Source: Gammaproteobacteria bacterium | GTDB taxonomy: Bacteria > Pseudomonadota > Gammaproteobacteria > Burkholderiales > Burkholderiaceae_C | Reading direction: 5' to 3' | Length of the DNA stretch: 64,000 nt | NCBI GenBank assembly: GCA_025359085.1 | Contig: JANYHL010000082.1 | Location: 1 to 64,000 of the forward strand | Shown here: positions 47,999 through 52,343 of the stretch, piece after piece | Numbering within the stretch: the first letter of the stretch is position 1 | Layout of the letters: each line of letters opens with the position of its first letter | Made by a program: the position numbers and the translations under genes | The notes under the pieces: model-generated | The model's input: only the letters and a program-made list of their open reading frames with translations | The model's database searches: none | Told to the model about the DNA's origin: nothing

Positions 47999-48808
47999 TC
48001 AATTAACAAATGCTGGTTTGATACTGCACCGCTCAGTCTCCTCAAGCCAGGCCAACAAGCCTGGGTCGCGCACGCCTACTTGCGCTTCCACCTCTTGCAA
48101 ACTGGCAAGGTAGGGCGCCACGGGTCCGTAGTAATCAGCTTGAGGCCCAATGGCCCTGAAGGCAATGTTCATGCGCAGTAGCGAGCGCGCCAAGGGACGC
48201 TCCATGGCGGCGTACCAGTGGCCAATGCCATTGGCGCGGCTGTAAGCGTACATCTGGCGATAGAGTGTCATCAGAACCTGCGCCGCGTCATCGCGCCGCA
48301 CGCCAGGGGAAACCGCGTTCTGCTGGCCCGCCGTCACGTCTGCAAGCCCGTTACCACGCAGACGCCGATAGTCACGGCGCAGCATGAGCCGACTGACCTC
48401 GGCGGCGTGGCCCGGCACCGGCAGATTTACACCGTGGGCAGAGGTGGTGCAATGATTCTGAAACGGGAAACGCTGGTTGATATCGGGGCGAACCAGACGA
48501 ACGTACCCCACCAACTCATCCTGCGAATCGAAGGCATAAAAATGTTTTGCGGCATCGTCGTGCTCGTCGCTCTCCGCCCCATCCGGGTAGTCCTGCGGAG
48601 AAAGGAAACTGCATTCCACGCAATAAACCTGGTACCTGAGTTCCAGAGCGCTTCTGAATACGCGATCCTGCACACGCAGGCCACTTTCCACCCTACGAGG
48701 GGCACCGACAGGCGGTCTCATCAGGTGTGCGGCCAGGTTGGCGTTGCGGGTGGGGTGGTCGAGTCTTCCGAGCCGACGGTCTTGAGTCTCAAAACGAGGT
48801 GTTGTCAT
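47999..48808 (-). CDS. PEP-CTERM/exosortase system-associated acyltransferase (paralog 1)
   Basis: LELRYQVYCVECSFLSPQDYPDGAESDEHDD, DELVGYVRLVRPDINQRFPFQNHC, WYAAMERPLARSL...DYYGPVAPY. Confidence 0.85.
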   Translation of the reverse strand: MTTPRFETQDRRLGRLDHPTRNANLAAHLMRPPVGAPRRVESGLRVQDRVFRSALELRYQVYCVECSFLSPQDYPDGAESDEHDDAAKHFYAFDSQDELVGYVRLVRPDINQRFPFQNHCTTSAHGVNLPVPGHAAEVSRLMLRRDYRRLRGNGLADVTAGQQNAVSPGVRRDDAAQVLMTLYRQMYAYSRANGIGHWYAAMERPLARSLLRMNIAFRAIGPQADYYGPVAPYLASLQEVEAQVGVRDPGLLAWLEETERCSIKPAFVN

Positions 48809-49298
48809 GATGGATCAGTAAAAAGGCATTCAAGCCCAACCATCCTAAGTCTGAATGCCAAAAAGACAGGCGGGGATTACAGACTGTTTCAGACCTCGTC
48901 TCGCTCACCTGCAGACGGCGTCCGCGCTGAACAGGCCAAAAAACGCGACAGAGGCGAGTCCCCTTTGGCAGTGAAGGCGGAAGGGTTCAATTTAAAGAAC
49001 TCCAACCGGCGACACCCATCAAGCAACGCCAGAGCCTCGCCAGCGCATGTCCGAGGGTTTTGCAGAGTTTTCTTAGCGCCTACCGGCAGCATCAAACTGA
49101 GTCCTTCCTCTGTCGATTTTTTTTACACGAAGAGCACCCAGCAAACGGGTGAGAAGAAGAAAATCCTTTAAAAACATAACATTGCAGAAATTGGCATGGC
49201 ACTTGCTTTGTTGCATGGGAAGAGCAAAAAGGAAATCAAGTACGGATGATTGCTCTTTCGCTTTTTAAAACGGACCCAGCTTACTTAGGAGAAGGAAA

Positions 49299-50066
49299 AT
49301 GGAAATCAAGACACTACGAAAAGCATTGGCGGTCGGGGTACTCGCAATAACCTCGGGCTATGCAACACAGGCCAGCGCAGTCCCTAGCTTTGGCTTCACT
49401 GAATATGGGGGTTTTGCGGTTGACGTGTCGGTTGCCACGTATTCTGACCCACTTGTCGGACCCGCCAGTCTTATTCCTGCTGTAACACCACTCTACGAGA
49501 CGATGAGCTGGGTTAATACTGCTTTTCCTCAAAGTTCATTGAACCTCTCAACGGTAACGGGTCCCGCCCCTCTGCCGTTTTCAACATGGACGACCATTTC
49601 AACCTTGACGCATAACAATATCGTTATTCCTTTGGCCACCAACTGGGGCCCCCAGGATATTTGGGGACGGTTCAAGATCACAGACAGCGACGGAGCACCG
49701 ACTGTGAGACTGGACAGTGACGACGCCATCACAATATCTTTCGTTGAAACAGTCAATGCGACTCCGTGTCCTGCGCCAAATCCGAACGGGTCTACCTGTG
49801 ATGACTCTTTCACGTTTACAGCGGTCGGACTTAGCGATCTGCCTTTTACCGCGAACGATGGCAGTAACTGGCTAGCCCAGTTCCGCCTTGCAAATTTAGT
49901 CGGCGCTATCCAGATTGGAAGCACTATCTATACGGCTGAAGCCCAGTCAAGCCATTTGGACGTTCAAGTTCTGGTCAGTCAGATTCCGGAGCCTGCGACA
50001 CTTAGCCTGTTTGGCCTTGGCTTGCTCGGCCTCGGTTTGGCCAGACGGCGCCAGTTGAAAGGCTAA
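49299..50066 (+). CDS. PEP-CTERM sorting domain-containing protein
   Basis: Signal peptide; C-terminal IPEPATLSLFGLGLLGLGLARRRQLKG tripartite PEP-CTERM signal; RBS gaaggaaa. Confidence 0.95.
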   Translation: MEIKTLRKALAVGVLAITSGYATQASAVPSFGFTEYGGFAVDVSVATYSDPLVGPASLIPAVTPLYETMSWVNTAFPQSSLNLSTVTGPAPLPFSTWTTISTLTHNNIVIPLATNWGPQDIWGRFKITDSDGAPTVRLDSDDAITISFVETVNATPCPAPNPNGSTCDDSFTFTAVGLSDLPFTANDGSNWLAQFRLANLVGAIQIGSTIYTAEAQSSHLDVQVLVSQIPEPATLSLFGLGLLGLGLARRRQLKG

Positions 50067-50095
50067 GCAATTTGCTCCTGTTCTACTGTTGAGAA

Positions 50096-50122: not shown

Positions 50123-50179
50123 GGTGGGGAAGGAAGCGTGGCGTGTCAGTCGCCGCAAAAATTCCTGACAGTTATCGGA

Positions 50180-51616
50180 CTACGGAACGAAGTATGAAAA
50201 TTTTCGTTCGTGATCAAGCAGAGGGCGATAGGGAAATGCAAGCGGCGCCAATAGATCGAAATCAAGCGGTATTGACAACTGTCTATGGCCTAGCGCGACC
50301 AGTTGTTGACGCAGGCCGGCATCGACAGCCGCACGTTCACTGTTGGTCTGGAGGGTCAATTTGACGCCGCCAGCGTCGTTTTTTTCGATTCTGAAGGCAC
50401 CGGTGAGTTGGTCAGCGACCGCATGATCCAGGTAGATCAGCTCCTTGATGCTCTCGACCGAGGGCATTCCGGTGGGCCGGTCCTGGATACGACCCTTAAC
50501 GACCACCACGGGCAACCAGGGCGCGGTGGTTTGTGCAAGTTGGGCGGCTTTGGCTGCGTCTTGCCGGCTTACCCGTTTGCCAAAATCGCCTGTGCTGTAG
50601 CGCGGCAGGGCAATGATGGCCTGCGGGTCAAGCATGGTAAAGCACAGCTCACCAAATCCATCCGAATCCGGATTCAACACTTCGATATAACAACGCAGCG
50701 GGTTGTAGCAAAAAACGCAGGGTACCGAACCAACGTCAGACTTGCCGCTCAGCAATTGCGCCATCTCCGGTTGAAGGCGCATGGCGCGGCGCATTCGGAT
50801 GGTCTCGCGGGTTTCAAACAACAAGTTCAAACCCAGTTCTCCGACGCCAAAAGAACTGCCGATCAGACGCTGCGAGTCATGGTCGGGATCGAACCCCATG
50901 CGCGCGGCCAGGTAGTCGCGCTGGGCTTCAACCAGCACTTCTTCGCCGATGATCACACTGGTATTGAGCGCCTTCCAGTCGACACCGGCAACGCGCGCCT
51001 CATCAAGCAAGCGCCGGATGAACAAAGGATCGGTACACAGCAGCGTCTGCTGAAAGCGGGGGCCGACGTCGCGCAGGATGGCGCATGCCATGTCCTCGCG
51101 CACACTGACGTTGGCGACAGCCACGGCACGGGAACGAAACACCACGCCCATCGGCAGGCAGTTCACCAGCAATGTGGCGTACTGGTCCACTTTAAACACG
51201 TCTTGCAGACCCAGGTCGATGTCAAACCACGAGGTTTCGTGCTGCCCGCGCGCCGTGAGCCTGAAGCCGAAGCTGTGGCCACCGCGTCCGGAACTGGTCA
51301 ACACATCGGCTAATTCCCTAGCTGGCGTGGGCCGCGCCAGTTGGTCCAACGAGAAGCGCCCGAAAGTATTGTCCTTGGTAAGGACCGGTAACGCGAGCAA
51401 ATCGGTTTGGGCGCTCAGGCTTGAAGGCTCGACTCGGTGCTCCTGCAGCAGCGCCCGGTAGGCTGCGCTGCATCGAGCGGCCTGAATGGCGGCTCGCACG
51501 GCACCGCGCCGTGAGCTTGCCAGCATGCGTTCGCCGTCCATGCGCCTGCCGTAGCTAAGCAGGAGTTTGCGAAGCAGTCGTACGGCAGCAACTGGAAAGA
51601 GGGGCAACAGGTTCAC
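50180..51616 (-). CDS. Phenylacetate-CoA ligase (PaaK)-like / coenzyme F390 synthetase-like adenylating enzyme
   Basis: LALPVLTKDNT, LTSSGRGGHSFG, VIIGEEVL, GSSFGVGELGLNL, YSTGDFGKR motifs; GTG start at 51616 proposed (ORF track shows 51709). Confidence 0.7.
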   Translation of the reverse strand: MNLLPLFPVAAVRLLRKLLLSYGRRMDGERMLASSRRGAVRAAIQAARCSAAYRALLQEHRVEPSSLSAQTDLLALPVLTKDNTFGRFSLDQLARPTPARELADVLTSSGRGGHSFGFRLTARGQHETSWFDIDLGLQDVFKVDQYATLLVNCLPMGVVFRSRAVAVANVSVREDMACAILRDVGPRFQQTLLCTDPLFIRRLLDEARVAGVDWKALNTSVIIGEEVLVEAQRDYLAARMGFDPDHDSQRLIGSSFGVGELGLNLLFETRETIRMRRAMRLQPEMAQLLSGKSDVGSVPCVFCYNPLRCYIEVLNPDSDGFGELCFTMLDPQAIIALPRYSTGDFGKRVSRQDAAKAAQLAQTTAPWLPVVVVKGRIQDRPTGMPSVESIKELIYLDHAVADQLTGAFRIEKNDAGGVKLTLQTNSERAAVDAGLRQQLVALGHRQLSIPLDFDLLAPLAFPYRPLLDHERKFSYFVP

Positions 51617-51617
51617 A

Positions 51618-52343
51618 TCAGTGATCGGTGGCTTCGGTGCGACGCATCCATGCCAGCAGCGCCGGATTTGTAGTCTCGAGATGCGCCTCCAGTTCACGCA
51701 GATCGCCAAGATAAGGCGCCACCGGCCCGTAATAATCGGTCAGGGGTCCTATCTGCACAAAAGCGAAACCCATTTGGCCCAGCGCCCGCGCCAGCGGACG
51801 CTCCATGGCCGCATACCAGTAACGAATCCCGTGGGCGAGGCTGAACGCGTACATCCGACGGTACAGGCTGAGCAGAATCTGGGGTGTATGGTCGCGCAGG
51901 TCTTGGTTCACCCTGGCTGGGTCTTCCTCGACGGTCACGCCCGCCAGCACGTCGCCGCGCCGGCGCCGGTAATCGTGGATCACCATCAGTCGGCTGATCT
52001 CGGCCGACTGCGCCGGCGGCGCCAGACTGGCACCCTCCAGCAAAGTGCTGCAATGACTCTGAAACGGAAAGGACTGAGTCAAGTCAGGGCGCACCAGGCG
52101 CACGTAGCCGACCAACTCATCACGTAGATTGAACGCGCAAAAATGCGCTGAACTGGCGTCATATTGATCGGTCTCGCAGCGCTGCGGGTAGTTGGCGGCA
52201 GGCAAAAAACCGCATTCCAGACAATAGACCTGAAACCGCAGTTCGAACACCCGCTGCATCAAGGCATTGTCCCGACCCTGGACTGCCTCGCAGCTGCGAA
52301 ACAGGGGGGCAAACTCCGTTGGATCGAGCGTTGAGGGGGGCAT
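51618..52343 (-). CDS. PEP-CTERM/exosortase system-associated acyltransferase (paralog 2)
   Basis: FELRFQVYCLECGFLPAANYPQRCETDQYDA, DELVGYVRLVRPDLTQSFPFQSHC, WYAAMERPLARAL...DYYGPVAPY; similar along its length to 47999..48808. Confidence 0.85.
   Translation of the reverse strand: MPPSTLDPTEFAPLFRSCEAVQGRDNALMQRVFELRFQVYCLECGFLPAANYPQRCETDQYDASSAHFCAFNLRDELVGYVRLVRPDLTQSFPFQSHCSTLLEGASLAPPAQSAEISRLMVIHDYRRRRGDVLAGVTVEEDPARVNQDLRDHTPQILLSLYRRMYAFSLAHGIRYWYAAMERPLARALGQMGFAFVQIGPLTDYYGPVAPYLGDLRELEAHLETTNPALLAWMRRTEATDH

Follow-up and report, generated by a model that had tools for sequence, protein, structure and literature searches.

What does a PaaK-like adenylating enzyme do next to an acyltransferase of the exosortase-associated type and a PEP-CTERM gene? 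The question is raised by a stretch of DNA of 64,000 nucleotides (nt), hereafter the window, from a gammaproteobacterium placed in the Burkholderiaceae_C. The window lies within contig C127 of a 3.16-Mb draft genome that is 97% complete. At this locus the nearest named relatives in our scan of a genome collection were Rhodoferax metagenome-assembled genomes (MAGs). We found the PaaK-like enzyme, here called the ligase, to be strongly co-conserved with one clade of these acyltransferases, in genomes encoding exosortase A (XrtA) and PEP-CTERM proteins. The locus has the following features.

47999-48808, minus strand: acyltransferase A, 269 amino acids, a paralogue of B; TIGR03694 at 229 bits against a cut-off of 112
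49192..49207, plus strand: sigma-54-type (-24/-12) promoter-like site TGGCATGGCACTTGCT, 91 nt 5' of the PEP-CTERM start
49299-50066, plus strand: PEP-CTERM protein of the THxN family, 255 amino acids; NF038125, TIGR02595 and Pfam PF07589
50094..50122, no strand: palindrome AAAAAGCGGCC-TGCA-GGCCGCTTTTT between the convergent PEP-CTERM and PaaK-like genes
50180-51616, minus strand: PaaK-like adenylate-forming enzyme, 478 amino acids, GTG start; assigned from invariant motifs, fold model and profile
51614..51620, minus strand: junction TGATGTG, the stop of B, 1 nt and the GTG of the PaaK-like gene, read directly
51618-52343, minus strand: acyltransferase B, 241 amino acids, first gene of the pair; TIGR03694 at 256 bits against a cut-off of 112

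The preliminary description of this locus, made from the sequence alone, had the two acyltransferases flanking the PEP-CTERM gene. Acyltransferase A does lie on one side; on the other the ligase gene comes first and then that of acyltransferase B, with the PEP-CTERM gene on the opposite strand to all three. Direct reading agrees that the ligase GTG begins 1 nt after the acyltransferase TGA (CACTGATGTGAAC, CACTGATGTG), a spacing likely to couple translation of the two genes. Short gaps or overlaps at this junction are also present in loci L030, L031, L034, L035, and L036. The palindrome past the other end of the ligase gene is bordered by runs of A and T and is a probable two-way terminator; it was read directly and not listed by the pattern scan.

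Both acyltransferases were claimed to be exosortase-associated paralogues. They share 55% identity over 214 amino acids, and both belong to TIGR03694 (exosort_acyl), scoring over its cut-off in a genome with XrtA and seven PEP-CTERM tails. Their matches to Pfam Autoind_synth (PF00765), the LuxI family of N-acyl-homoserine lactone (AHL) synthases, reached 19.9 and 15.3 bits, below the gathering cut-off of 24. A structure model of B, with a mean predicted local distance difference test (pLDDT) of 84.6, matched RpaI, TofI, BjaI, LasI, MesI, and FeeM in a Foldseek search, placing B in the LuxI/FeeM fold as modelled. Across 21 homologues of B the residues R36, E57/D59/D62, R82, and E115-S117-R118 are invariant. 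RpaI, BjaI, and MesI, close fold matches of B, are annotated as dependent on coenzyme A (CoA) in their entries, a hint of a CoA donor rather than a demonstration.

The ligase was harder to place. Its single-sequence family matches were weak, FlxY at 25.8 bits and PaaK at 19.2 bits being far under cut-off, and no plausible Pfam family was found for any of 17 PaaK-like homologues. A single-sequence search of the PDB returned chance matches to cellulose synthase subunits only, which we discarded. Because such searches were uninformative, the family call required a profile and a structure model. The AlphaFold2 model (pLDDT 83.7, predicted TM score 0.86; residues 109-116 beside the P-loop poorly modelled) had the PaaK1 structure 2y27 as its best Foldseek match (E 9.5e-19, TM 0.63-0.70), followed by AjiA1, PaaK2, BT_0428, ClxA, and NatL2. 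A profile search found PaaK-type ligases at 4.5e-7 to 2e-5 with their motifs aligned. In the 17-sequence alignment TSSG, NCLPMGV, ANVSVREDMAC, GEE, SSxGxGELGLNL, GD, GRxxD, and DxERKF are invariant. By model and profile the protein is thus predicted to have a PaaK-type fold within the adenylate-forming (ANL) superfamily. TIGR02155, the equivalog model for PaaK phenylacetate-CoA ligase, failed at 19.2 bits against a cut-off of 646, and no F390-synthetase family model appeared among the NCBIfam matches up to E 0.1. The label PaaK/F390-synthetase-like therefore stands for the general PaaK fold, and likeness to F390 synthetase is unsupported beyond that.

To determine how widely the ligase and acyltransferase occur together, we surveyed several sets of genomes. 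The ligase was found in five of 61 relatives. The genome-collection scan gave 15 ligase loci, in Rhodoferax, Rubrivivax, Undibacterium, Solimicrobium, Dechloromonas, Sulfuritalea, and the Rhodocyclaceae, besides a few MAGs whose labels are less certain, Pseudoxanthomonas among them. In a sample of 400 genomes from the order, eight encode a full-length ligase, 43 a TIGR03694 protein over cut-off, and 99 XrtA over cut-off; 13 more have short, weak N-terminal ligase matches only. All eight ligase genomes encode XrtA and have a TIGR03694 gene adjoining the ligase gene, and none of the 400 has the ligase without the acyltransferase. Fisher tests gave 1e-8 for ligase against acyltransferase and 1e-5 for ligase against XrtA, values that are rough as the genomes are related. 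In a phylum-wide sample of 399 genomes the ligase was found only in the window genome, in one genome already counted, and as one partial, weaker match. Within the genus, both queries were run against 37 genomes; four of the five with an acyltransferase have the ligase, and none of the 32 without. G817 (the genome of L031) and G821 (that of L029) have a ligase-clade acyltransferase and the ligase. Three genus genomes with an acyltransferase of another clade (G022, G808, G825) have no ligase in the DNA examined.

After duplicate records were dropped, 23 distinct ligase loci remained. The acyltransferase is beside the ligase in all 23, being divergent in L037, one gene apart in L039, and cut by the contig end in L033. 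The co-occurrence that the preliminary description proposed as a check therefore holds at every ligase locus and in every ligase genome of the order sample. At 21 of 22 testable loci the ligase has a PEP-CTERM gene no more than about 2.5 kb away. The call for L026 depends on a second contig, L027, which carries the ligase C-terminus and the PEP-CTERM gene; L035 has no PEP-CTERM gene as far as its contig end, and L031 was left out of the count as its contig stops at the ligase. For comparison, a PEP-CTERM tail was found at 14 of 36 acyltransferase loci without a ligase, using flanks of up to about 5 kb and a simple pattern, with some contigs short.

At least two families are represented among the neighbouring PEP-CTERM proteins, and the strand of their genes varies. 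THxN proteins are encoded in the window, L028, L029, L037, and L043. The second family has a GW(S/T)V motif preceding the tail and two conserved cysteines, and no NCBIfam model other than the tail domains matched it over its own cut-off. L029 carries both kinds. Neither a member nor a remnant of the second family was detected in the window or among the host's own PEP-CTERM proteins. Its members include, among others:

L029:8919-9848
L030:7525-8508
L036:7496-8380
L038:7586-8458
L039:7793-8662
L040:7593-8441

In several genera the XrtA-system genes for EpsB2 and PrsK are found close to the module. Neither a carrier-protein gene nor a LuxR-type gene recurs among the neighbours of the ligase loci. 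In L043 (2831-13296) a co-directional array codes for an ATP-binding cassette (ABC) ATPase, a DUF1302 protein, the acyltransferase, the PaaK-like ligase, a THxN PEP-CTERM protein, an ATP-grasp protein, two MacB/LolE-like permeases, and an EpsB2 glycosyltransferase. Similar arrays are found in L028, L039, L042, and L045. In Rhodocyclaceae-type loci the ABC ATPase, DUF1302 protein, ATP-grasp protein, and two permeases are encoded in the direction of the module and are a candidate exporter of the product.

The window encodes no exosortase, as had been stated, and exosortase genes and further PEP-CTERM proteins had been proposed as a search in the rest of the genome. The single TIGR02602 match in the genome (C136:47697-48407) is on a different contig and is XrtA, at 350 bits against a cut-off of 208. 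Around it are genes for a putative O-ligase, an amidotransferase, a glycosyltransferase, a FemAB protein, a polysaccharide deacetylase, an ATPase, and a tyrosine autokinase, an exopolysaccharide set. Seven PEP-CTERM tails are over cut-off in the host genome. Neither outcome that would have refuted the preliminary description, a genome lacking exosortase or other PEP-CTERM proteins or a ligase not co-conserved with the acyltransferase, was obtained. The protein of the window matches NF038125 at 95.3 bits (cut-off 85) and TIGR02595 at 26.2 bits (cut-off 16), the latter at its C-terminus, bearing out the tail first read by eye and assigning it to the THxN family. PrsR at first seemed absent, with no whole-gene match over cut-off. 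Two contig-end pieces probably account for this, an N-terminal and a C-terminal one (G000:C136:3-500 and G000:C70:71081-71941) at 229 and 495 bits, each alone below the cut-off of 502.6; PrsR is likely present and split by the assembly. Contigs C70 and C136 then probably adjoin, which would put PrsR about 50 kb from XrtA.

We also examined whether the acyltransferases that accompany a ligase form a group of their own. One side of a branch with support of 100/99 holds all 22 ligase-adjacent sequences, seven local paralogues, and two sequences from G334; on the other side are 19 others, the unlinked sequences being matches over or near cut-off, one or two per genome, from an unevenly sampled family. 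Adding 20 sequences with a quicker method gave the same grouping, with six ligase-free sequences (from G085, G338, and G346) next to the clade. Pairwise distances among ligases and among acyltransferases are correlated (r 0.72, 0 of 5000 permutations), with shared species history contributing. L036 is the largest outlier; an exchange of its acyltransferase would explain this.

The A-type copies make up a clade of five (100/99), nested in a clade of 13 of the Rhodoferax type. In G218 and G420 the ligase is flanked by acyltransferases from a separate duplication. Local pairs are frequent (L046, L047, L072, L074, L068, L070, L095, and the window) and have more than one duplication origin. L068 (3467-8876) and L070 (2801-8411) encode tandem ligase-clade acyltransferases without a ligase, with a convergent ThiF-family gene and PrsT just upstream. 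The two members of a pair may act jointly, or each may have its own substrate.

The PEP-CTERM genes appear to be regulated apart from the acyltransferase genes. A sigma-54 motif precedes many proteobacterial PEP-CTERM genes, at a mean of 71 nt (standard deviation 38.5) from the start codon (Haft et al. 2006, PMC1569441), and RpoN dependence was shown for Aquincola pepA (PMC9850573). We scanned up to 220 nt upstream of genes at the ligase loci for TGGC(A/G)(C/T)(A/G)N4TTGC(A/T). With at most one mismatch the pattern precedes 17 of 20 PEP-CTERM genes, none of 21 acyltransferase B genes, and 2% of random 240-nt pieces. The distances are approximate: we assigned three start codons manually, and at one or two genes the site falls on or close to the annotated start. 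The window site is a full match and fits the -24/-12 class. A looser scan with three mismatches allowed gave 152 sites in the window where 176 were expected, hence no excess; of the two comparisons only the stricter one, which takes position into account, is informative. On that comparison the neighbouring PEP-CTERM genes, and not the acyltransferase genes, are predicted to carry sigma-54-type promoters.

How might the two enzymes work together? Members of the acyltransferase family TIGR03694 reportedly make N-acyl amino acids, a finding credited to Craig, Cherry and Brady in 2011. N-acyl amino acid synthases were already known to be linked to PEP-CTERM genes (Craig et al. 2011, as cited in PMC7293339 and PMC4897644). 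The enzymes here share with those synthases the TIGR03694 family, the LuxI/FeeM fold, a PEP-CTERM neighbour, and an XrtA genome, but they belong to a distinct clade with a dedicated PaaK-like ligase alongside. With PaaK itself (2y27, 2y4o; TIGR02155) the ligase has in common its overall fold and aligned P-loop and L-R-Y-x-T-x-D motifs; it differs in its own invariant NCLPMGV and ANVSVREDMAC and in having no phenylacetate pathway genes beside it. The best fold and profile matches of B are the CoA-dependent AHL synthases RpaI, BjaI, and MesI (6wn0, 5w8a, 6wns), which also offer the nearest working analogue, a synthase whose aryl- or branched-acyl-CoA donor comes from a ligase. An artificial pathway described in PMC4659178 reportedly joined 4-coumarate ligase to RpaI. 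Unlike these synthases, B is below the Autoind_synth cut-off and has no recurring LuxR-type neighbour, and S-adenosylmethionine is not established as its acceptor. FeeM, the founding enzyme of N-acyl amino acid synthase activity, also shares the fold with B. Its donor is an acyl carrier protein according to the title of Van Wagoner and Clardy 2006, as cited in PMC7293339, whereas no carrier-protein gene recurs at the ligase loci.

Our preferred reading, to which we give an even chance of being right, is that B and the ligase form a module of two genes within the XrtA/PEP-CTERM system, in which the ligase supplies the donor for an N-acyl-amino-acid-type product of the matrix. The ligase would activate a carboxylic acid with ATP and probably load it on CoA, as PaaK does. 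The LuxI/FeeM-fold acyltransferase would then transfer the acyl group to an amine, that of an amino acid or a similar acceptor, and the product would be an amphiphile or signal of the N-acyl-amino-acid type. Where related acyltransferases have no ligase, their donor would come from the general acyl pool of the cell; here a dedicated ligase would supply it. The product would act where the adjacent PEP-CTERM protein does, in the matrix of exopolysaccharide and surface proteins. That protein would be under sigma-54/PrsR-type control, the acyltransferase-ligase pair having no such promoter. Acyltransferase A would be a duplicated copy that perhaps uses a different donor or acceptor.

Several points weigh against this reading. 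Sequence cannot reveal the substrate. With characterised PaaK enzymes the ligase shares only 14-20% identity when aligned by fold, a distance at which CoA need not be its acceptor, and Foldseek rank among LuxI-fold proteins cannot separate use of CoA from use of acyl carrier protein, TofI and LasI being close too. Some clade acyltransferases have no ligase at their locus (G334, G417, G812), the G812 locus having two acyltransferases and a PEP-CTERM gene, and five ligase-free sequences fall inside the ligase clade in the enlarged tree. The preliminary description had proposed a pathway for an acylated signal or for modification of the sorted substrate. That the pair belongs together and to the PEP-CTERM/exosortase system is borne out by co-conservation, XrtA, and the seven tails. 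CoA as the carrier, passage of the donor from one enzyme to the other, the N-acyl product, and a role in the matrix are inferred, and the product may be a signal, a surfactant, or a change to the sorted protein.

The reactions could run in the other order, the ligase adenylating the free carboxylate of an N-acyl amino acid for ester or amide joining to exopolysaccharide, protein, or a small molecule. PaaK-family enzymes of the AjiA1, NatL2, and ClxA type can form bonds other than CoA thioesters, and the fold search returned these natural-product enzymes as well as PaaK. The acyltransferase gene also precedes the ligase gene, but gene order is a poor guide to reaction order and no dedicated transferase for an activated product recurs at all loci; we consider this order rather unlikely, if the most credible of the alternatives. 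The frequency of PEP-CTERM genes at ligase loci, set against that at ligase-free acyltransferase loci, would also suit a pair that has the adjacent PEP-CTERM protein, or the membrane anchor of that protein, as the target of acylation, and so modifies a protein instead of making a small molecule. Against it, those proteins are of at least two families on differing strands, their genes have their own promoter type, and they are exported, while both enzymes lack signal-like features in their translations and are seemingly cytoplasmic. Such a modification is quite improbable in our judgement.

We judge it scarcely more credible, and if anything a shade less, that only genomic linkage is involved, the acyltransferase and ligase taking part in separate exopolysaccharide reactions and being kept as a block of the XrtA region. 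The recurrence of EpsB2 and PrsK genes near the module and the clade acyltransferases without a ligase are consistent with this. It fits poorly with adjacency at all 23 loci, where several starts abut or overlap while the other neighbours change, with a ligase that never occurs without the acyltransferase in the order sample, and with a window genome in which the module and XrtA are on different contigs. We think it very unlikely that the pair makes the small molecule onto which exosortase A transfers PEP-CTERM proteins after cleavage. Such an acceptor might be a diamine or amino acid that is N-acylated yet keeps a free amine, and at the Rhodocyclaceae loci the MacB/LolE-like transporter would export it.

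Near the locus the window also encodes an AAA_14/DUF4143 ATPase (54197-55375, plus strand) and a 1303-amino-acid Eco57I-type restriction-modification methylase (55433-59344, minus strand), which as far as we have seen have no relation to the acyltransferase and ligase.

The dedicated ligase, together with a PEP-CTERM family that has no database model, appears to be undescribed in the searchable literature. We found no description there of a ligase partner for the acyltransferase; most subscription papers, including the founding paper of 2011, fall outside that scope. What exosortase-linked acyltransferases make, and why they keep company with PEP-CTERM genes, is a question that the ligase narrows: which acids it activates is open to direct assay, and the answer would identify the donor of the acyl group. 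With only two genes in the module, and carriers in named genera such as Undibacterium and Solimicrobium, deletion followed by mass spectrometry is practical. The carrier genomes have the XrtA and PrsK/PrsR machinery known from floc formation. In many Betaproteobacteria with exosortase A the module probably makes an acylated small molecule tied to the sorting of biofilm-matrix proteins.

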